Source: a virus. From it: DNA of 29,210 bases. Under the pieces are notes generated by a model. It saw nothing but the letters and a program-made list of their open reading frames with translations, was not told the DNA's origin and searched no databases. The translations under genes and the position numbers were made by a program. Where the stretch lies: IMG/VR virus record IMGVR_UViG_3300042691_002006, positions 1 to 29,210 of that record; one strand, 5' to 3'. The stretch's first letter is position 1; each line of letters opens with the position of its first letter. Of this stretch, positions 3,946-25,502 are shown one piece after another.

Positions 3946-4308
3946 ATGAGCTGCGAAAAATTTATTGGGATGTTGTTTTTAGCACGGGATGTCACCCATT
4001 CAGCGCACCTCAATACCCGTAGCTATGCCAAACATAAGGCGTTACAAAAGTTTTACGAGAACATTATCGACAGAGCAGACGCGTTTGCCGAGGCCTACCA
4101 AGGCCGAAAAGGGCTGATTGGCCCGATTGCGTTAGCGTCAGCCAAAAAGACCAATAACGTCCTTGAGTTTTTAGAAGATCAACTTGCCGAGTTAGAAATC
4201 ATGCGTTACGATGTGTGTGATAAATCAGACGCGCCGTTGCAGAACTTAATTGACGGTATTATTGAGCTGTACCTTTCAACCCTCTATAAGTTGAGGTTTT
4301 TAGCATGA
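3946..4308 (+). CDS. Small all-helical phage protein (DUF5856-like)
   Basis: This is a 120-residue, mostly helical protein of unknown function. The pattern FIGMLFLARDVTHSAHLNTRSYAKHKAL, then FYENIIDRADAFAEAYQG, resembles a phage family I recall as DUF5856, which has a four-helix, ferritin- or Dps-like appearance. His18, His21 and later acidic residues could form a metal site, but that is speculation. The ATG follows the portal stop by two bases, and its own stop overlaps the next start (ATGA at 4305). Placement inside the head operon suggests a structural or head-assembly role. Confidence 0.72.
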   Translation: MSCEKFIGMLFLARDVTHSAHLNTRSYAKHKALQKFYENIIDRADAFAEAYQGRKGLIGPIALASAKKTNNVLEFLEDQLAELEIMRYDVCDKSDAPLQNLIDGIIELYLSTLYKLRFLA

Positions 4309-13348: not shown

Positions 13349-13954
13349 ATGTCTATTGTCTTATTAGGCTCAACTAGCGGAAGCTGTACGCTACAAGAAC
13401 AAGCGGTAGCAGGTACTAGCGTTTTAACTTTACCCGTTGGCACAGGAACAGTCGTTGCTAATAATGTAAATAGTGCAATCGTTAGCGGAACTGCCGTAGC
13501 ATCAACAAGTGGCACTTCTGTTGACTTTACTAGTATTCCTAGTTGGGTTAAAAAGATTACTGTGATGTTAAGCGGAGTATCTACTAACGGAACAAGTAAT
13601 TATCAAATCCAAATTGGAGATTCTGGTGGAGTTGAAACTACTGGATATGGTGGTTCATCAAGTGCAGTTTCAGGTGGTACAGCCGCAGGACAAGTTTATG
13701 CAGGGGCTGGATTTACTTTATTTGGTACTTATGCAGCGGCTGGAACTTATTCAGGATATATAACAATTAGTTTATTAGATAGTTCTACAAATACATGGAA
13801 CGCTTTTGGTAGTTTGGCTAGGACAGATTCTGTTTATAGCATTTATACAACTGGTTCTAAATCATTGTCTGCAACATTAGACCGAGTCCGCATAACCACA
13901 GTAAACGGCACAGATACTTTTGACGCTGGCACTATTAACATTTTGTATGAATAA
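13349..13954 (+). CDS. Fibre paralogue 1 (shared C-terminal domain)
   Basis: This 201-residue protein is the first of three adjacent paralogues. Residues 1-45 (SIVLLGSTSGSCTLQEQAVA onward) form a short repeat-type N-terminus common in phage fibres. Residues about 47-201 are the shared domain: SGTSVDFTSIPSWVKKITVM, IQIGDSGGVETTGY, and the end RITTVNGTDTFDAGTINILY. The domain is beta-rich and has no catalytic motif. AAAGGAAAA precedes the ATG. By position after two fibre genes it is probably a tail tip or receptor-binding protein; this is inference. A conserved 20-base block lies at 13898-13917. Confidence 0.75.
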   Translation: MSIVLLGSTSGSCTLQEQAVAGTSVLTLPVGTGTVVANNVNSAIVSGTAVASTSGTSVDFTSIPSWVKKITVMLSGVSTNGTSNYQIQIGDSGGVETTGYGGSSSAVSGGTAAGQVYAGAGFTLFGTYAAAGTYSGYITISLLDSSTNTWNAFGSLARTDSVYSIYTTGSKSLSATLDRVRITTVNGTDTFDAGTINILYE

Positions 13955-13964
13955 GGAATAAATC

Positions 13965-14138
13965 ATGGAACGAATTGAAGTTAATATACAAACTGGTGAG
14001 CAAAAGACTGTTCAGTTAACTGCCGAAGAAATCGCCCAAGCAGAAGCCCAATATCAAGAGTGGCTTGCTAGTCAACCCACCAAAGAAGAACAGATTGCTA
14101 AACTGCAAGAGCAGATTGACGCATTGAAAGGGGCTTAA
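13965..14138 (+). CDS. Small acidic coiled-coil protein between fibre paralogues
   Basis: This 57-residue protein, MERIEVNIQTGEQKTVQLTA followed by an acidic helix and ending EEQIAKLQEQIDALKGA, has a strand-like N-terminus and a C-terminal heptad pattern. TAAGGA precedes the ATG, and the stop is one base from the start of the second paralogue (TAATATG), so it is clearly part of the operon. Small Gln/Glu-rich proteins of this kind next to fibre genes are often fibre-assembly chaperones, with which this is compatible. I cannot assign a family with certainty. Confidence 0.72.
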   Translation: MERIEVNIQTGEQKTVQLTAEEIAQAEAQYQEWLASQPTKEEQIAKLQEQIDALKGA

Positions 14139-14139
14139 T

Positions 14140-14775
14140 ATGGCTGTAACCTTAAACGCATCTACATCTAGCGGGTTTGTTTCTACAGCCGATACCTCTG
14201 GTACTGTAGAGATTCAATCTAATGGAACTACACGATTAACTGTAGCGTCAGGCGGTGTAACTGCTACTAACCTAACGGCTACAGGCACATTTGGTGGTGG
14301 TGTAGTCACTAGCGGAACTGCCGTTAATCTTGCTACTGGAAGCCCTACATCGGTTGACTTTAGTTCAATTCCATCTTGGGTAAAGCGTATTACTATTATG
14401 TTGGCTGGCGTTTCTTCTAACAGTACATCTTTAATTCAAGTTCAATTAGGTGATGCTGGCGGTATTGAAACAACTGGTTATTTGTCAACAGCACAAAACG
14501 CTGGGTCATCGGCAAACTCAACAACAGGTTATTTACTTACTCAAACAAACCCAGCCGCAGCGTCTTTAACAGGCAATGCGTTTTTGTGCAAAATTGACGG
14601 AAACACTTGGATTTTAAATGGTGACACAGCACAACAGCCTACTGTTTCTGCTTCTGTGTCGTCTTTAGGTGGGTCTAAAACATTGTCAGACACATTAACA
14701 ACAGTCCGCCTAACTACAGTAAACGGCACAGATACATTCGATGCTGGCTCAATCAATATTCTTTACGAGGGTTAA
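14140..14775 (+). CDS. Fibre paralogue 2 (shared C-terminal domain)
   Basis: This 211-residue protein is the second paralogue. Its N-terminal 55 residues (SGTVEIQSNGTTRLTVASGG then VTATNLTATGTFGG) are a shaft-like repeat unrelated to those of the other two. From about residue 57 the shared domain follows: SVDFSSIPSWVKRITIMLAG, VQLGDAGGIETTGY, SKTLSDTLTTVRLTTVNGTD and the NILYE end. The ribosome-binding site GAAAGGGG lies inside the end of the upstream small gene. The conserved 20-base block is at 14716-14735. The same inferred role applies as for its neighbours, with a different attachment segment. Confidence 0.75.
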   Translation: MAVTLNASTSSGFVSTADTSGTVEIQSNGTTRLTVASGGVTATNLTATGTFGGGVVTSGTAVNLATGSPTSVDFSSIPSWVKRITIMLAGVSSNSTSLIQVQLGDAGGIETTGYLSTAQNAGSSANSTTGYLLTQTNPAAASLTGNAFLCKIDGNTWILNGDTAQQPTVSASVSSLGGSKTLSDTLTTVRLTTVNGTDTFDAGSINILYEG

Positions 14776-14777
14776 TC

Positions 14778-15311
14778 ATGGCAGTAACTATTAACGGAAG
14801 TGCAGGAGTAACAACCAATACTGGTGCTGTTTATGACAGTATTCAAAGAGCAACCGCACAGGCTTCTACAAGCGGAACAAGCATTGACTTTACTGGTATT
14901 CCTAGCTGGGTGAAACGGATTACTGTGATGTTTAATGAAGTTTCTTCAAGCGGAACATCAAATTTTTTAATTCAATTAGGTGATTCAGGCGGAATTGAAA
15001 ATACTGGTTATGTTTCTACTTCTAACTATACAAACCAAGCAAGCACAACTGGTGGTTCAAACAGCACAGCAGGCTATTTACTTTTTAATTCAGCGTCAAG
15101 TGGTGCGGCTTTAATTTCAGGAACTTATACATTAGTAAATATTTCAGGAAATACTTGGATTGGAAGTGGTGTTCATAAAATGATTACAACGCAAATGCTT
15201 TTTTCAGGTGGAAGCAAAGCCCTTTCTGATGTTTTAACTCAAGTTCGCATTACGACAGTAAACGGCACAGATACATTCGATGCTGGTTCTATAAATATTC
15301 TTTACGAGTAA
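14778..15311 (+). CDS. Fibre paralogue 3 (shared C-terminal domain)
   Basis: This 177-residue protein is the shortest paralogue. It has only about 25 residues (AVTINGSAGVTTNTGAVYDS) before the shared domain, which then runs SGTSIDFTGIPSWVKRITVM, FLIQLGDSGGIENTGYVSTS, SKALSDVLTQVRITTVNGTD, NILYE. The variable middle (about residues 80-140) differs from the other copies, as would be expected if this part contacts a receptor. GAGGG lies upstream of the ATG, which comes two bases after the previous stop. The conserved DNA block is at 15255-15274. Confidence 0.75.
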   Translation: MAVTINGSAGVTTNTGAVYDSIQRATAQASTSGTSIDFTGIPSWVKRITVMFNEVSSSGTSNFLIQLGDSGGIENTGYVSTSNYTNQASTTGGSNSTAGYLLFNSASSGAALISGTYTLVNISGNTWIGSGVHKMITTQMLFSGGSKALSDVLTQVRITTVNGTDTFDAGSINILYE

Positions 15312-15314
15312 GCT

Positions 15315-15656
15315 ATGACCGTTTACGTCAAAGTTCTGATCCCCGCCAAGATTGCTGAAAACACGCAGACCACGCAGTACACTGCGGGTAACAACATCAG
15401 CGCTATCATTGACAAATTCACGGCGACTAACTTTAGTGGGTCTAGCGCCTCGTTGAGCGTGAACATTGTCACGGTAGCGGATACGTCGGGCAATAAGAAC
15501 TTGATTGTTAAGACTAAGAGCCTAGCCGCAGGCGAAACCTACACGTTTCCTGAGATCGTTGGGCAAGCGCTAGAACCAGGTGGCTTCATCTCAACCATTG
15601 CTAGTGCAGCCACCGCCATTAACATTCGGTCTAACGGCCGTGAGATCTCAAGCTAA
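15315..15656 (+). CDS. Hypothetical tail-region protein, beta-rich
   Basis: This 113-residue protein has the pattern TVYVKVLIPAKIAENTQTTQ, a strand-rich centre (SGSSASLSVNIVTVADTSGN) and ends with TAINIRSNGREISS. The layout, a small jelly-roll-like domain with 'YTAGNNISAIIDKFTATNFS', recurs in phage tail-tip neighbourhoods. I know of no proven function. It begins three bases after the third fibre paralogue, and its TAA overlaps the next ATG by one base, so it belongs to the same transcript. Confidence 0.65.
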   Translation: MTVYVKVLIPAKIAENTQTTQYTAGNNISAIIDKFTATNFSGSSASLSVNIVTVADTSGNKNLIVKTKSLAAGETYTFPEIVGQALEPGGFISTIASAATAINIRSNGREISS

Positions 15657-16522
15657 TGTTGCACACAGTCAACGTCACTTACGGCAAAGGGTTTAAGGTA
15701 CTGCTTCCTTTTGCACAAAAGATTGAGGCTTTACAAGAAAATCTTTTACAGATGCCTCAAGCTGACATTGTGACAACGCATACCTTTAAACCTAACATAT
15801 ACGAACGCGCTATCCGTATTCCCGCTTGGACTGTGCTAACAGGCGCAGAACATAAGACAGATTACAAGATTCGCCTTGAAAAAGGTACGATTGCGGTCAA
15901 TGTAGGTGATGAAGTCAAAATAATGACTGCGCCGTGTGAATTTGAAGCTAAAGCAGGCGCGCAACGCGTAGGCCGCGTGTTTGACGAAGAAGTAGTTTGG
16001 GTTGATATTTATGACAACCCAGACAATTGCAAAGATATTGCAGTGCTTGAAGAACGTTTGTACGTTGTACCTGCTTGCGGTTTAGGTGAAAATAGAGTTG
16101 CATTAATGATTCAAAACGCACAAAATGACTATAATCTGTTTGTATCTCAACTTGGTCTTGACCAAGCGCAAATAAATGCGATTGTGCAAATTGAGAGTGA
16201 CTTAATTGATATGCCTGAAGGATACGCTGTAGAGCTTAGAGATTCTAAGATCCACGGCAAAGGGTTGTTTGCAACCAAGCGTTTTGAAGCAGGTGAAGTC
16301 ATCTGCCCAGGACGAATTAACGGTAAACGTACGCCTGCAGGCCGATTTATTAATCATTCTTTTGATAGTAATGTTATCCCAACGCTGGTTGGTGATGATA
16401 TTAACGCCGTAGCTAAACGTATTATTCACATAGGTGAAGAATTATTAGTAGACTATAGATCATCAATGAGAGTTAATTTTGGTATTGCTTTACAAGGAGA
16501 ATTGCCATGTCAGGATGGGTAG
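15656..16522 (+). CDS. Cupin-like plus SET-domain protein (putative lysine methyltransferase)
   Basis: This 288-residue protein has two parts. Residues about 35-140 are strand-rich (IPAWTVLTGAEHKTDYKIRL, then GTIAVNVGDEVKIM) and look like a cupin-type barrel. Residues about 188-275 carry the SET signature in order: HGKGLFATKRFEAGEVI (GKG at 201-203), RFINHSFDSN (230-239), and GEELLVDYR (260-268). In SET enzymes these form the S-adenosylmethionine site, the NHS knot motif and the catalytic Tyr region. The post-SET Cys cluster is absent, as in many bacterial SET proteins. Product and target are unknown; protein lysine methylation is inferred from the family. Start overlaps the preceding stop (TAATG); the end overlaps the next gene by 16 bases. 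Confidence 0.85.
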   Translation: MLHTVNVTYGKGFKVLLPFAQKIEALQENLLQMPQADIVTTHTFKPNIYERAIRIPAWTVLTGAEHKTDYKIRLEKGTIAVNVGDEVKIMTAPCEFEAKAGAQRVGRVFDEEVVWVDIYDNPDNCKDIAVLEERLYVVPACGLGENRVALMIQNAQNDYNLFVSQLGLDQAQINAIVQIESDLIDMPEGYAVELRDSKIHGKGLFATKRFEAGEVICPGRINGKRTPAGRFINHSFDSNVIPTLVGDDINAVAKRIIHIGEELLVDYRSSMRVNFGIALQGELPCQDG

Positions 16523-17253
16523 CCGGTGCCGTAGTAGTAGGATCAGTAGCCTCTGGCTATATGAGTTCACAAGCCGCTAAAAGCGCCGCTAGAACACAGG
16601 CCGAGGCGTCAGATAGGGCTATTGCAGCGCAACAAGCGGGGTTGTCAGAACAACAAGCTATTAGCGCCCCTTATGTAGATAAAGGTACGGAAGCCATGAA
16701 CCGCCTTGCGGCCATGACTGAACCTGGCGGCGAGTATTATGAACCTTTCTCCCAGACCGATTTTAAACAAGACCCTGGTTACGCTTTTAGGCTTAAAGAA
16801 GGTATAAAAGCGCTCAACGCAAACGCAGCCGCTAGGGGTGGTTTAATCTCTGGTAACGCGCTAAGAGCCGCTACAGCCTACGGTCAAGAAATGGGATCGC
16901 AAGAGTACACCAACGCGTTCAATCGGTACTATGCCGAACGTAGCAACAAAATGGATCCGTTAAAATTCTTAACTGGTGTGGGGCAAGCTGCGGGTGCAGG
17001 GCAAGCGTCTAACATCGGCGCAGCAACAGGAAACATAGCTAATTTGACAACAGGCGCTGGAAACGCGATGGCAGCGGGGCAAGTTGGCTCTGCTAATGCG
17101 TATGCCAATGCTATTGGGCAAGGCATTAGCCAATATCAAACAAATCAATTAATAAATAGATTTACCCCACAAAACTCACCTAATTTTTACTCTAATACAA
17201 GAGCAGGTGGCCCCGCGCCCGTCACCGATTACAGCACTGCATATACAGGGTAA
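16507..17253 (+). CDS. DNA-ejection protein, P22 gp7-like
   Basis: This 248-residue Ala/Gly/Gln-rich protein resembles P22 gp7 (229), one of the proteins injected with DNA. The N-terminus SGWVAGAVVVGSVASGYMSS is a small-residue hydrophobic helix that could insert in a membrane. The central part has the recognisable DPGYAFRLKEGIKALNANAA, ARGGLISGNALRAATAYGQE and QEYTNAFNRYYAERSNK pattern. The C-terminal third is low complexity (GAGQASNIGAATGNIANLTT). A strong ribosome-binding site AAGGAGAA lies inside the end of the SET gene. It is the first of three ejection candidates in P22 order. Confidence 0.83.
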   Translation: MSGWVAGAVVVGSVASGYMSSQAAKSAARTQAEASDRAIAAQQAGLSEQQAISAPYVDKGTEAMNRLAAMTEPGGEYYEPFSQTDFKQDPGYAFRLKEGIKALNANAAARGGLISGNALRAATAYGQEMGSQEYTNAFNRYYAERSNKMDPLKFLTGVGQAAGAGQASNIGAATGNIANLTTGAGNAMAAGQVGSANAYANAIGQGISQYQTNQLINRFTPQNSPNFYSNTRAGGPAPVTDYSTAYTG

Positions 17254-17262
17254 GGAATAATT

Positions 17263-18546
17263 ATGCCAATCGATCCAAGTATTCCCTTACAAGTTAAGAA
17301 TATAAAACTAGAGTCGCCTATGAATCAATTGGCGATGATGGGTGAGGCCGTCAAATTAGGCGAAATGCAACGCGGCGTAGATACACAAAACAAGCTGCGC
17401 GAATTGTATTCCCAAGGCATCGACGTTAGTACACCTGAAGGGTTTAAGCAAGTAGCATCCCTTGACCCTGCAACCGCGCTAAAGCTAAGGGCTGACGCGT
17501 TGCAAGGGCAAAAACTTCAAGGCGAGATTAAGAAAACAGGTTTTGAACTTACCGAAAAAGGTATGAATATTATGCGCGAGCGTAGTAAAGACCTTCTTCA
17601 AAATCCATCAAACGAAAATTATATTGCCCATATACAAGAAGGTTTACGTGACGGTTTAATTAGCCCAGAACAAGCAAAGCGCAGCGTACAAATTTACACA
17701 GCTATCCCCGCTAATGAGCGTGTGGCGTACATTACACAAGGTTTAGCTAAAGCCGAAAAACTTTACGAAACAAAAACCATTAGTGCAGCGCAACAACAAT
17801 CTGATCTTACAGCGCGCCGTGGTCAAGACATTACCGCTCAAACAACCATGCGTGGTCAAGATATTGGTCGTATTCCTGTAGGCTACCGTATGACGCCAGA
17901 AGGTACAATTGAAGCAATTCCCGGTGGCCCAACTACTACGCCAATTTCGCCTAAAGAAATGCAAGTACGAGAGGCTAAGTTTCCACAAGCTACGTCCGCA
18001 CTTAAATCGTTTGACGCTAAATCTGATGAACTTATTCGCGATATTCAACGTTTGCGTAATCATCCTGGTCTTAACAGCATTACAGGTATTGTTTACGGTC
18101 GTACGCCTAGCGTTACTAAAGAAGGTCGTGAAGCACAGGCTTTATACGATAAAGTTACCGCAGGTTTGCAGTTTAAAGAACTTCAAGATATGCGTAACGC
18201 TTCACCCACAGGTGGCGCATTAGGTAACGTATCGAACCAAGAAGGTCAGTTCTTACGTCAAGCCGCAGGCGCACTAGATCGTACGCAAGAACCCGGAAGC
18301 GTTCAAGCTGAATTAGATCGTATTGCTAACTCTGTTAGTGGATCAAAACAACGGCTTCGTGAAGCCTACGATATGACCTATGATTACAAAGGTCTTGGTG
18401 GCGGTGCGGCTGCACCTAGCGCTGCGCCTGCTACTCCTTCCGCGCCAAGTGCAGGCGGTAACAGCGTAACAATCCCTGGCGGTAAAGTATTAACGTTCCC
18501 AACACCAGAAGCGGCAGCAGCGTACAAAAAAGCAGCGGGGTTATAA
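17263..18546 (+). CDS. Putative ejection / internal virion protein
   Basis: This 427-residue protein starts PIDPSIPLQVKNIKLESPMN and has a long, mostly helical, Gln/Lys/Glu-rich body (KLGEMQRGVDTQNKLRELYS, DPATALKLRADALQGQKLQG). A short repeat, RRGQDITAQTTMRGQDIG, lies near residue 190. The end is Pro/Ala-rich and then SVTIPGGKVLTFPTPEAAAA. It sits where P22 has gp20 (471 residues). The assignment as an ejection protein rests on position and helical composition. TAAGGAATAATT precedes the ATG. Confidence 0.68.
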   Translation: MPIDPSIPLQVKNIKLESPMNQLAMMGEAVKLGEMQRGVDTQNKLRELYSQGIDVSTPEGFKQVASLDPATALKLRADALQGQKLQGEIKKTGFELTEKGMNIMRERSKDLLQNPSNENYIAHIQEGLRDGLISPEQAKRSVQIYTAIPANERVAYITQGLAKAEKLYETKTISAAQQQSDLTARRGQDITAQTTMRGQDIGRIPVGYRMTPEGTIEAIPGGPTTTPISPKEMQVREAKFPQATSALKSFDAKSDELIRDIQRLRNHPGLNSITGIVYGRTPSVTKEGREAQALYDKVTAGLQFKELQDMRNASPTGGALGNVSNQEGQFLRQAAGALDRTQEPGSVQAELDRIANSVSGSKQRLREAYDMTYDYKGLGGGAAAPSAAPATPSAPSAGGNSVTIPGGKVLTFPTPEAAAAYKKAAGL

Positions 18547-18547
18547 C

Positions 18548-20872
18548 ATGGCCGTAGACTACGAAGCCCTTGCAAAGCAATTTGGTGGCTCGGCTGCCCC
18601 TGCGCCTGATACTAAGATTGACTATGAAGCCTTAGCCAAACAGTTTGGCGGTGGCGTAGCAGAACAAGTCAGCCCTCGTCGGCAAATGGTTGAGGCAGAG
18701 TTGCGTAGCGCTGTTGCGCCTTTTGCGGGTTTTAGTAAAGGTGCAGGCAACATTATGTTTGGTGGTCAGCGTTTAGTTGGTAAGGGTTTAGAAGCCGTAG
18801 GAAATTTATTCCCTGCCGATCAAACTTTATCTAGTTTAGTTACGGGGCAACGTGTATTAAATCCAGTTGAACAAGCTGGTCGTGCCTTAATTGAGGACGC
18901 TGCACGTCGCCAAGCCGAACAAGAAGCGTTTATAGTCCCCTATAAAGCCGTAGCACCTACCGCAACAGGCGCAGGTGAATTTACAGGTGAAGTTGTTAGT
19001 ACCTTGCCAGTTGGCGGTGTAATTGCCAAAGGCGTTAGCAAGATACCAGGCGCAGGCAATGTGGCAGAAGCCATTAGAACAGGTGGCTTTAGAACAGGCG
19101 CAGCTGCACCCACTACTTTTGGTGGCCGTGCTGCCGATGTAGCAACACGGGCTGGTGGCGGTGCTGTAGTGGGCGGTACATCCGCTGCCCTTATTAACCC
19201 TGAAGAAGCTGGTACAGGTACAGTAATTGGCGCTGCTGCGCCGTTTGTATTGCCTACTGTTGGCAAATATGTTGCCCAAGCAGGCGGTAAATTTATTGAT
19301 GCCGTAACAGGCAAATTAGCCAATGTTGAAGCGGGTAAAGTTGCCCGTGAAGTAGCAGGCGATCAGATCAATCAGATTCGTGCCGCTAACAAATTAGCGC
19401 CTTTAGACATTAGTGCAGCCCAAGCCGCTGCCGGTATTGACAACGATGTATATCAGGCGTTTTTAGACTTTGTGGCGGGTAAAGACAAGTCTAGTTACTT
19501 CCGCGTGTTAAAAGACACGCAAAAAGCAGATCAATTAAATCGTTTAGCGCAGTTAGCTGGTGGGCCAACTTTGACCGAAAACTTAACGTCGGTTGGTCAA
19601 TTTAAAAATGCGCTTAACAATTTAATGACCCCAATCCGTGAAACCGAGTTGGCAGCTGCCAATATTGCGGGTACAACCGGCAAGCGTTTGCAACAAGAAG
19701 CCAACGTATTAGCCGAAGCTGCTACAGGCAAGGTTCAAGATGTACGGCGCTTTGTAGGTGCTATACCCCGTGCAGAAGCACTAGCCAAAGGCAAAGTAAC
19801 TGTAACAGGATTACCTGCTAGTTCGCTTTACAACTATCCTGCTGAATTAGCCAAAAAAGCCGATGAGGTGGCTTCACAAGCTGCCGAGGCATCTTTACGC
19901 TTTGGTGAAGCTGGGCGGTTTAAACAAGCTGCCGTAGATAGCTTAGAGGCATACGGCCTTAGACCATTAACATCCGACTCTATTTTGAGCCGTTTGGGTG
20001 GCATTTTGCGTAACCCTGAGTTTGCGGGTAACGATGTCATTGAAGGCGCTGTCCGCAATTTTGGTGATGACGTAGTTAAGTGGACTGACCAAGGCGGTGT
20101 TATTGATGCTTTTGCCTTGGATAGCCTACGCAAGAACTCAGTCAATGCAGCCATTGAAAAGCTACGCCCAGGCTTAGATCAAACATCCAAAAAGAACTTG
20201 GCTGCGGGTGTGTTAGCTCAACTTAAAACACCAATTATTAACGCCGTTGAAGAAGCGGGCGGTACAGGCTATGGTCAATACTTGCGTGATTATGCTGCAA
20301 ACGCACAGTTAATTGACCGCCGTAAGTTGGCAGGCAAAGCCCTAGAAATGCTTAACAAGTCGCCTGACGAGTTTACGCGTCTAGTTAAAGGCAACAATCC
20401 TGATGCCGTAGAAGCCGTCTTTGGCCCCGGCAGTTTTAATATTTTTAAAGAGATGGGTACAGACATCAAGCCCATGCAACAAATTGCTGATGAGTTGTTG
20501 CGTGACGCTAAAATTGGCGAACAAGTCAAAGCAGGTCGCCGCGCTTTAGGTCTTGAAAAAGAAAGCATGGCAGAAAAGATTCCAGGCTTCGTAGGCTACA
20601 AGACTGCAATTGCCAAAAAAGTATTGCAAACGCTAGAAGGCAAAGTAAGCAAAAAGACTATTGGCATTTTGTCGGATGCAGCCAAAACAGGCAAAGCGAT
20701 GAATGAAGTGTTAGACACGCTCCCAGCTGATGAGCGTATTAAAGCGTTTGACCTTTTGACCAAAAGCAAAGATTGGAACCGCGCTGTAACATCTGGCGCA
20801 ATTATGCTTACAATACCCCCAGCTAACAACTTAGCACCTGACCAACAAAACCAAAATGCACTGGCTCGTTAA
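18548..20872 (+). CDS. Large putative ejection / internal virion protein
   Basis: This 774-residue, Ala-rich, mainly helical protein occupies the place of P22 gp16 (609). The N-terminus contains two copies of DYEALAKQFGG (residues 4-14 and 25-35), a repeat that also occurs in other phage internal proteins and may be a sorting or docking tag. Residues about 120-240 include Gly/Ala-rich hydrophobic stretches (GVIAKGVSKIPGAGNVAEAI; GGAVVGGTSAALINPEEAG) with possible membrane activity. The rest is long amphipathic helix. No lytic transglycosylase motif is visible. The start follows the previous stop by one base and the end overlaps the next ATG. Confidence 0.7.
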   Translation: MAVDYEALAKQFGGSAAPAPDTKIDYEALAKQFGGGVAEQVSPRRQMVEAELRSAVAPFAGFSKGAGNIMFGGQRLVGKGLEAVGNLFPADQTLSSLVTGQRVLNPVEQAGRALIEDAARRQAEQEAFIVPYKAVAPTATGAGEFTGEVVSTLPVGGVIAKGVSKIPGAGNVAEAIRTGGFRTGAAAPTTFGGRAADVATRAGGGAVVGGTSAALINPEEAGTGTVIGAAAPFVLPTVGKYVAQAGGKFIDAVTGKLANVEAGKVAREVAGDQINQIRAANKLAPLDISAAQAAAGIDNDVYQAFLDFVAGKDKSSYFRVLKDTQKADQLNRLAQLAGGPTLTENLTSVGQFKNALNNLMTPIRETELAAANIAGTTGKRLQQEANVLAEAATGKVQDVRRFVGAIPRAEALAKGKVTVTGLPASSLYNYPAELAKKADEVASQAAEASLRFGEAGRFKQAAVDSLEAYGLRPLTSDSILSRLGGILRNPEFAGNDVIEGAVRNFGDDVVKWTDQGGVIDAFALDSLRKNSVNAAIEKLRPGLDQTSKKNLAAGVLAQLKTPIINAVEEAGGTGYGQYLRDYAANAQLIDRRKLAGKALEMLNKSPDEFTRLVKGNNPDAVEAVFGPGSFNIFKEMGTDIKPMQQIADELLRDAKIGEQVKAGRRALGLEKESMAEKIPGFVGYKTAIAKKVLQTLEGKVSKKTIGILSDAAKTGKAMNEVLDTLPADERIKAFDLLTKSKDWNRAVTSGAIMLTIPPANNLAPDQQNQNALAR

Positions 20873-23678: not shown

Positions 23679-23827
23679 CAACATCTCCCGTCTATATCAA
23701 AATCTTCTTTGCCGTTAAGCCGGTCAATCTCGGCTACCAGACGGCGGATAACATCGGCAATATTGGTGTTTGGTGCATACTCGTCAATATCGTCGGCTAG
23801 TTTTAACGCTTCTTCTCGTAGGGTCAT
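23678..23827 (-). CDS. Small acidic protein (49 residues)
   Basis: The translation is MTLREEALKLADDIDEYAPN, TNIADVIRRLVAEIDRLNGK, EDFDIDGRC. It is acidic and helical, and similar wording ('ALxLADxLD...TxxDAAxLIRRLxAEID') is common in short phage proteins. It begins with ATGA on the helicase stop and ends with TGATG on the next gene, so it is translationally coupled on both sides. Function unknown. Confidence 0.68.
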   Translation of the reverse strand: MTLREEALKLADDIDEYAPNTNIADVIRRLVAEIDRLNGKEDFDIDGRC

Positions 23828-25158
23828 TTCAATTCCTCCAATGCAATATCTGAAATAGCGCGTTTGTCATGCAACGCTGCCCAAATCCGTTCATCCACGG
23901 ACTTATTGGTTAGCAAAATGTAACACCATACATCCTCGGTCTGCCCAGAGCGATGTAAGCGCCCAACAGTCTGCTCAAAGAGTTCTAGGCTCCACGGCAA
24001 AGATACAAAAACAATCTTGCTACCGCCGTGCTGTAGGTTCAAGCCATGCCCAGCCGACTTGGGGTGGATCAGCAACAGTTCAATCTTGCCCTCGTTCCAA
24101 CGCTCAATCGCCTTGAAGTCGTTAATCGTCTGGGCGTGTGGGTAACGGCGCTTGAGTTCAGCCAATTCCTCAACAAAGTTGTAAACCACGATAGTGTTAG
24201 CGTGTTGGTTTTCTTCCAGCAACTCGTCTAGCAAATCAAACTTGTGGCTAGAAAACCACACAGGCGTATTGGTGACGTTCATCTTGCCAGGCGTGTCCGA
24301 TGCCGTTGTTTCGCTCTTGTAAATAAAGCCTGACGACATCTGTTGTAGCTTACCTGTGACGACTGCAGCGTTCATGGCGGTAATCTGCTCGGTGCCAAAC
24401 TCAACGGCAAACTCTTTTTTCATCTTTTCGTATGGGGCGCGGTCTGCCATGTCGCAGCGCATCTCAATCGTATGCAAGTCAGGCAGCTTGTCTTTATACG
24501 CACCAGCTTCTAGCACAAAGGTTGCGGGTTTAATCTGTTTCATTACGGCCTCCAAAGAACCTACACGGGGCGCCCATTCGCCAAAATCCTTATTGATGCA
24601 CACAAAATACTGTTGCATGAACGCACCTTTGCTGCGCCCTAGCAAAGATTGATCGACAATCTTGCACTGCCCAAAGACGTCCTCAAGCCCGTTGCTAGTA
24701 AATGATCCGGTCAAGCCCCACCGCACCTTGATCTTGTCAATAATCTTGATAAGTGCCTTAAACCGCGCCCCGCTTGGGTTTTTAAGACGGGTCAATTCGT
24801 CAAACACAATGGCGTCAAAGTCTAATGGCTCTTGGGCTAACCATTGGATATTGTCGTAATTAGTTACCACTACGGGAAAACCCGAATGGAGTGCTTGGCT
24901 GCGCTGGGCAGCCGTGCCGACCGCTACGGCTAGTGGCATATCAGGCGCCCACTTAGGCTGCTCAATTGGCCATACGTCCGTACAGACCCGTTTAGGGGCT
25001 AAAACGAGCCACCGCTTGACGATCTTGTGCCTGAGCATCTCATCCATACCCGTGAGCGTAATGGCGGTCTTGCCAGCGCCTACAGGGGCTAGGATCATGC
25101 CTCGGTCGTTGGAGTACAAGAAGTCAACGGCACGCTCTTGGTAGGGGCGCAGATTCAT
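23824..25158 (-). CDS. SNF2-type DEAD/DEAH helicase
   Basis: This 444-residue superfamily 2 helicase/translocase has the SNF2-like layout. The N-terminal Q-like motif is LRPYQERAVDFL. Walker A is APVGAGKT (about residues 24-31), Walker B is VFDELTRLKN (DELT at 120-123), and motif III is WGLTGSF. The C-terminal RecA lobe has TIVVYNFVEEL, HGLNLQHGG and motif VI QTVGRLHRSGQ (from 396). It would use ATP to move on DNA, probably in phage replication or recombination. The frame extends to a TTG at 25176, but the ATG at 25158 forms ATGA with the VRR-NUC stop and is preferred. Phage SNF2 plus VRR-NUC pairs are a recurring module. Confidence 0.9.
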   Translation of the reverse strand: MNLRPYQERAVDFLYSNDRGMILAPVGAGKTAITLTGMDEMLRHKIVKRWLVLAPKRVCTDVWPIEQPKWAPDMPLAVAVGTAAQRSQALHSGFPVVVTNYDNIQWLAQEPLDFDAIVFDELTRLKNPSGARFKALIKIIDKIKVRWGLTGSFTSNGLEDVFGQCKIVDQSLLGRSKGAFMQQYFVCINKDFGEWAPRVGSLEAVMKQIKPATFVLEAGAYKDKLPDLHTIEMRCDMADRAPYEKMKKEFAVEFGTEQITAMNAAVVTGKLQQMSSGFIYKSETTASDTPGKMNVTNTPVWFSSHKFDLLDELLEENQHANTIVVYNFVEELAELKRRYPHAQTINDFKAIERWNEGKIELLLIHPKSAGHGLNLQHGGSKIVFVSLPWSLELFEQTVGRLHRSGQTEDVWCYILLTNKSVDERIWAALHDKRAISDIALEELK

Positions 25159-25430
25159 TGGTTCTCTTTCATCCAAGTGTCAATATGATCGGTTGACCAT
25201 AGGCAGGCGTAGTTCTGATGTAGGGTCTTGAGGTTATGGGCGTGAACCTTTTGTAACATGGACAGCTTGCCACCCTCGGTCTTGAGTTCCACAAACCACA
25301 CAATCCCGCCTGGCAAACAGACCACTCGATCCGTTACGCCACGTTGGTTTGGCGACTTAAACTTGTACGCAATCCCGCCCATCTTGCTGACGGCCCAAAC
25401 AAAATATTTTTCAATGTCTTTTTCTTTCAT
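25155..25430 (-). CDS. VRR-NUC domain nuclease
   Basis: This 91-residue protein consists of a single VRR-NUC domain, a PD-(D/E)XK-type nuclease fold that in viruses acts on branched or flap DNA. Visible parts are the N-terminal Glu6, YKFKSPNQRGVTDRVV (Asp34), VWFVELK (Glu48, Lys50) and GGKLSMLQ (Gln60), in the expected order and spacing. The ATG at 25430 is preferred to an upstream GTG at 25484 because the conserved domain begins there. No Shine-Dalgarno is visible before it. It is the first gene of the reverse operon and overlaps the helicase by ATGA. Confidence 0.9.
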   Translation of the reverse strand: MKEKDIEKYFVWAVSKMGGIAYKFKSPNQRGVTDRVVCLPGGIVWFVELKTEGGKLSMLQKVHAHNLKTLHQNYACLWSTDHIDTWMKENQ

Positions 25431-25502
25431 GTAAAAAAGTTTAGCACAACATTTATTTTTGTGATACAGTGAAGTTTCAATCACTACAGTAAAGGAAAGT
25501 AA
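25431..25502. promoter_or_regulatory. Divergent promoter region
   Basis: This is a 72-base AT-rich gap between the minus-strand operon and the plus-strand replication genes. Plus-strand candidate: extended -10 TGATACAGT at 25462-25470 with a weak -35 around 25441. Minus-strand candidate: TGCTAAACT read toward the VRR-NUC ATG, with its hexamer ending about ten bases before that ATG. TACAGTAAAGGA at 25485-25496 provides the ribosome-binding site for the gene at 25503. Assignments are by eye only. Confidence 0.5.

Follow-up and report, generated by a model that had tools for sequence, protein, structure and literature searches.

A viral SET protein comparable with the one studied here is vSET of the chlorovirus PBCV-1: the virions contain this enzyme, which methylates histone H3K27 of the host, and vSET is a precedent for a virion-packaged SET enzyme (PMC7019647). 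An earlier note on this DNA had described SET lysine methyltransferases as known mainly from eukaryotes and scattered bacteria, but this view is dated: bacteria widely carry SET genes (PMC3980110), and the combination of a cupin and a SET domain occurs in hundreds of viral contigs. The same full-length cupin-SET architecture is found in the family PHROG_34170, which has no function given and whose SET domain and cassette behaviour are unremarked. Rhodoferax phage P26218 and Pseudoalteromonas phage PH1 also encode it, with the product recorded as hypothetical in both cases. A related record takes its name from the structure of the PBCV-1 H3K27 methyltransferase, and an uncultured phage record contains a 263-aa 'SET domain containing protein'.

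The cupin part alone has homologues among the SET-less 'short tail fiber' proteins of the P22-like podoviruses Shewanella X14, Thalassomonas BA3 and Vibrio VvAW1 and VPMS1. In X14 and VPMS1 the cupin is in the same slot, directly ahead of the ejection gene, and the gene (186 aa and 164 aa, respectively) stops after the cupin, without the SET cassette; for BA3 and VvAW1 the match is confined to the cupin part. A literature search found no description of a cupin-SET phage protein: a phage SET ORF is merely listed in PMC9025141, and the SET mentioned in PMC3220722 is actually an Ig-like I-set domain. The cupin-SET architecture is already represented in databases, as PHROG_34170 and as 'SET domain containing protein'; the novelty lies in the minimal SET domain that forms an exchangeable cassette on a tail-type cupin of phages. 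To our knowledge, phage-encoded protein methylation is almost unexplored.

The cupin-SET gene and its virion gene block

The window, by which we mean the whole analysed stretch of 29,210 nucleotides (IMG/VR record IMGVR_UViG_3300042691_002006), is a contig of a P22-like podovirus that encodes portal, scaffold, coat, gp4-like and gp10-like head closure and fibre-like genes, followed by the cupin-SET gene; all features are on the plus strand unless stated otherwise. The ORF of cupin and SET is exactly 15656-16522 and encodes 288 aa, called from the ORF itself, Pfam SET and PHROG_34170 (5.1e-39, residues 20-277 against 17-287 of 296, thus full-length). The order of domains is a tail-type cupin barrel with an N-terminal helix (residues ~20-141, 15713-16078; PHROG_12032, PHROG_24280), a two-helix linker (residues ~144-188, 16085-16219) that moves with the SET domain and also begins the unfused SET proteins, and the SET domain core (residues ~189-275, 16220-16480), delimited by Pfam and predicted fold. 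The AlphaFold model of all 288 residues has a mean pLDDT of 84; linker and SET domain modelled alone reach 92.4.

Domain matches and placement both support a cupin-SET fusion within the virion block, as the earlier note had proposed. Its claim that virion genes overlap on both sides stands for the overlaps themselves, which measure 1 nt on the upstream side (gene at 15315-15656) and 16 nt on the downstream side, where the ejection gene starts at 16507, but not for the identity of the upstream gene as a fibre: this 113-aa protein, which often adjoins the cupin gene in relatives, has no PHROG match. Directly downstream follow a P22 gp7-like DNA ejection protein (16507-17253, PHROG_598), a P22 gp20-like ejection protein (17263-18546, PHROG_2534) and a third gene of internal or ejection type (18548-20872), assigned by its position in the P22 gp16 slot and without PHROG match. 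The gp7-like gene is the next gene in 237 of 264 fused loci and in 54 of 59 SET-less loci.

The start of this ejection gene is embedded in the last codons of the cupin-SET gene (16495-16509), with the Shine-Dalgarno sequence AGGAG at 16495-16499 and the ATG at 16507-16509, and similar overlaps occur in many relatives. The conserved C-terminal GE.LCQDG can therefore be rejected as a protein motif wherever the overlap exists, as the same codons provide Shine-Dalgarno and start of the ejection gene; the embedded start also explains why SET-less relatives retain the same short C-terminal tail.

That the N-terminal half is cupin-like, first noticed from its strands, is borne out by the fold: cupins are the top PDB matches of the full predicted model (best match 4e2g_A, E 1.8e-6). 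Pfam Cupin_2 is matched by just one of 54 homologues (E 0.008), and annotation comes from PHROG_12032 ('short tail fiber protein') and PHROG_24280 ('tail fiber adhesin'). The cupin also exists alone, in SET-less relatives. It is, judged from sequence, a common tail-type protein of P22-like phages, with a putative status as a virion or tail component that derives from annotation and synteny. The metal-histidine region reads AEHKTDY in the window protein and AVHRHEH, an HxHxxH-like motif, in some relatives (the clade L096-L101), and metal binding may therefore differ between cupin clades.

Several other genes of the window were recorded. A GroES-like co-chaperonin gene (1435-1713, PHROG_3188, 3.9e-16) is located just ahead of the portal gene, and a gene at 3946-4308, between portal and head genes, matches PHROG_858, a 'starvation-inducible transcriptional regulator' (2.5e-25). 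Three ORFs in succession (13349, 14140 and 14778, within 13349-15311) all match the same part of PHROG_29482, a pattern suggesting that a fibre-type C-terminal domain has been duplicated in tandem. The genes at 23824-25484, for a helicase (PHROG_62) and an endonuclease (PHROG_93), are encoded on the minus strand, unlike the rest of the window.

A compact SET domain with a conserved active site

The SET motifs noticed at first reading were all located at their positions: GKG, the GxG cofactor motif, at residues 201-203 (16256-16264), RFINHS, with the first half of NHSxxPN, at residues 230-235 (16343-16360) and GEELLVDY at residues 260-267, ending in the tyrosine of the catalytic position, Y267 (16454-16456), which is invariant in 54 homologues. 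GxG, NHSxxPN and the ELxxDY-type catalytic tyrosine are thus all present. Profile search agreed with the SET assignment: the window protein matches Pfam SET (PF00856) with E 6.3e-10 and 39.9 bits, above the curated cut-off of 22.4, and the profile also matched all 54 diverse homologues at E<=0.01. The predicted model of the SET part alone matches MLL1, SET8 and PBCV-1 vSET in a Foldseek search against the PDB (E ~1e-6). An NCBIfam search returned no useful family, and there was no PADLOC match that would place the protein in an anti-phage defence family.

Conservation across the family is high. The 176 unique homologous SET domains retain GxG in 98% of cases, NH[SA] in 100% and the E..DY-type tyrosine in 98%; the sequences that deviate in the last are two truncated ones and a divergent one that nevertheless has a tyrosine. 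Median dN/dS is about 0.10 for the SET part and about 0.05 for the cupin, which indicates purifying selection and thus that both parts are in use. A conserved SET active site is most naturally read as that of a methyltransferase. As the motifs for cofactor, NHS and catalytic tyrosine are nearly always kept, the protein is likely an active lysine methyltransferase that transfers methyl groups from S-adenosylmethionine.

The phage SET domain differs from that of MLL1 in the distance between GxG and NH: 32 residues in 171 of 172 phage sequences and 67 in MLL1, the latter counted from its alignment with the phage SET. This indicates that most of the SET-I insert is missing, and by these alignments the domain is a minimal, very compact SET domain. 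SET-I normally helps to form the peptide groove, although it varies within the SET family and is not strictly defining. With most of it gone, something else, such as the helical linker or the cupin, would have to help in holding the substrate.

Presence and absence of the SET cassette

Relatives of the cupin-SET protein are encoded by 332 IMG/VR contigs in one pattern scan. The relatives nearest to the window protein that lack SET are 55-72% identical to it in the cupin and end at residue ~150-170, and their virion gene order is the same. The part absent from close relatives corresponds to residues ~155-277 of the window protein (16118-16486) and is in frame. A particularly clear pair is L014, with SET, and L025, without: the flanking DNA is 87% identical on one side and 91% on the other, and the segment in between measures 398 nt and 29 nt, respectively, an in-frame difference of 369 nt. 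Between close relatives, the SET part appears as an optional, exchangeable cassette.

SET presence changes 7 times on a careful cupin tree (80 rows), with 5 changes forced by well-supported branches, and 13 times on a larger tree made with a quick method (216 rows), with 7 forced; both trees are enriched for SET-bearing rows because some of the scans used SET patterns. On these trees, at least five to seven well-supported switches would be required. In scans not depending on SET alone, 22 of 33 complete loci were fused in the lineage of the window; for the lineages of X14 and L109, the counts were 11 of 48 and 65 of 75. A search of 32 records with Pfam SET found one SET in each of the 13 SET-bearing records and none elsewhere in the 19 SET-less records, many of them 35-38 kb long; relocation of the SET domain within these genomes was therefore rejected. 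Cupin and SET identities are correlated across pairs of SET-bearing proteins (Spearman 0.85), indicating that most SET copies descended together with their cupin, with loss and perhaps regain by recombination.

The fused form is dominant (264 loci, a redundant count) and unfused copies are a handful. In Paraburkholderia ferrariae (L129), cupin and SET are two overlapping genes that adjoin genes for a DnaB-like helicase, assigned from sequence, and an O-like protein, assigned from PHROGs. Contigs of Comamonadaceae and Rhodocyclales (L132, L133) have a stand-alone SET gene near genes of primase/helicase type. Two viral contigs have a separate SET gene, in one case (L155) flanked by the genes for a minor coat protein and the gp7-like protein and in the other (L134) immediately upstream of a head-tail adaptor gene. 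The start of the module is given by these unfused SET proteins, whose first residues correspond to about residue 155-158 of the window protein. An alignment-based scan identified 11 relatives on bacterial genome contigs, including Paraburkholderia, Methylophaga and Lentisphaera, most of them metagenome bins; scanning bacterial genomes with a single SET-part protein as query found no relatives. Two distinct cupin-SET loci (L123, L131), about 80 kb apart, are present on one Paraburkholderia MAG contig (NZ_SCRP01000034.1). A divergent stand-alone SET gene of 102 aa (L044, 5959-6267) is present in Pelagibacter phage Kolga, adjoining a gene annotated 'AAA protein'.

Possible targets of the SET domain and comparison with known systems

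The explanation that we favour, with a probability of roughly 45%, is an optional, host-directed methyltransferase on a tail-type cupin, with the SET domain as an in-frame accessory cassette. The cupin-fold tail-type protein of a P22-like podovirus would carry at its C-terminus a compact SET domain that probably moves methyl groups from S-adenosylmethionine to lysines. The cassette would be gained and lost in frame downstream of the cupin and ahead of the embedded start of the gp7-like ejection gene, a site that would leave the rest of the virion module undisturbed. The cupin would keep the SET domain on or near the virion. The main target would be a host protein, since SET is optional and unfused copies are found beside prophage replication genes. 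Two points speak against this explanation: the predominance of the cupin-fused form hints at a function that is usually linked to the virion or to its assembly, and most of SET-I, with its part in the peptide groove, is absent.

A possible, if less probable, alternative, one of two roles suggested in the earlier note, is that during assembly SET methylates a virion protein of the phage, be it coat, tail, ejection protein or the cupin itself, and thereby tunes stability or ejection. The fusion to a protein of the virion block, directly ahead of the ejection genes in nearly all cases, and the dominance of the fused form are what would be expected, and methylated structural proteins are known from Cellulophaga infection, where the phages encode no known methyltransferase of their own (PMC13288928). 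However, close relatives that share the gene order may have or lack SET, and unfused copies adjoin replication genes. Moreover, the adjoining first ejection protein (gp7-like) has no conserved lysine among 50 relatives, the highest conservation being 52%, so its candidacy as substrate via a conserved lysine is unsupported. This negative test weakens, without excluding, a virion substrate and, together with the unchanged gene order in the absence of SET, argues against an obligatory step in virion maturation and for an optional activity.

A more specific form of the host-directed reading, in which the lysine methyltransferase is carried on the virion by the cupin, is delivered with the ejection proteins (the other role suggested in the earlier note) and methylates host proteins, would make the protein a prokaryotic counterpart of vSET, traded between phages as a cassette; we consider this rather unlikely. 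Unlikely, too, is that cupin-SET is a late non-structural assembly factor instead of a virion component, with SET acting in the infected cell. The gene does correspond in position to P22 gene 14, with the tail needle gene on one side and gene 7 on the other, and the tail-fibre names of the cupin are annotation, the literature search having found no proteomics. Yet in several records the cupin has a structural, tail fibre or adhesin annotation, and homology of the cupin to P22 gp14 has no sequence support (best E 0.057); what is shared is the genomic slot only.

A SET domain without catalytic activity, acting in binding or as a decoy, is improbable. Inactive SET proteins exist, as reported for MLL5 (PMC5094779) and SET-24 (PMC12886896), and most of SET-I is absent from the phage domain, but the cofactor and catalytic motifs are nearly invariant across sequences that are only ~30% identical. 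A chance motif match or assembly artefact can be dismissed, given the Pfam matches in all homologues with a score above the curated cut-off, the confident fold, the purifying selection and the independent contigs with 28-100% identity.

The family provides natural, near-identical pairs with and without a SET enzyme, as well as phage isolates of both kinds (with SET, P26218 and PH1; without it, X14 and VPMS1), so that the benefit of lysine methylation to a phage becomes directly testable.

Among known systems, the best matches in sequence and fold are MLL1/KMT2 and SET8, which share RFINHSxxPN, GxG and the catalytic tyrosine with the phage SET, whereas ~35 residues present between GxG and NH in MLL1 are missing from the phage domain, and the histone substrates of MLL1 and SET8 are not expected in the bacterial hosts of a phage. 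PBCV-1 vSET is likewise a small viral SET protein and matches in fold (3kma_A, TM 0.63 by target length). However, vSET is a stand-alone protein with eukaryotic chromatin as its target, while the SET domain of the window is fused to a cupin and belongs to a bacteriophage with relatives that infect bacteria or reside in them.
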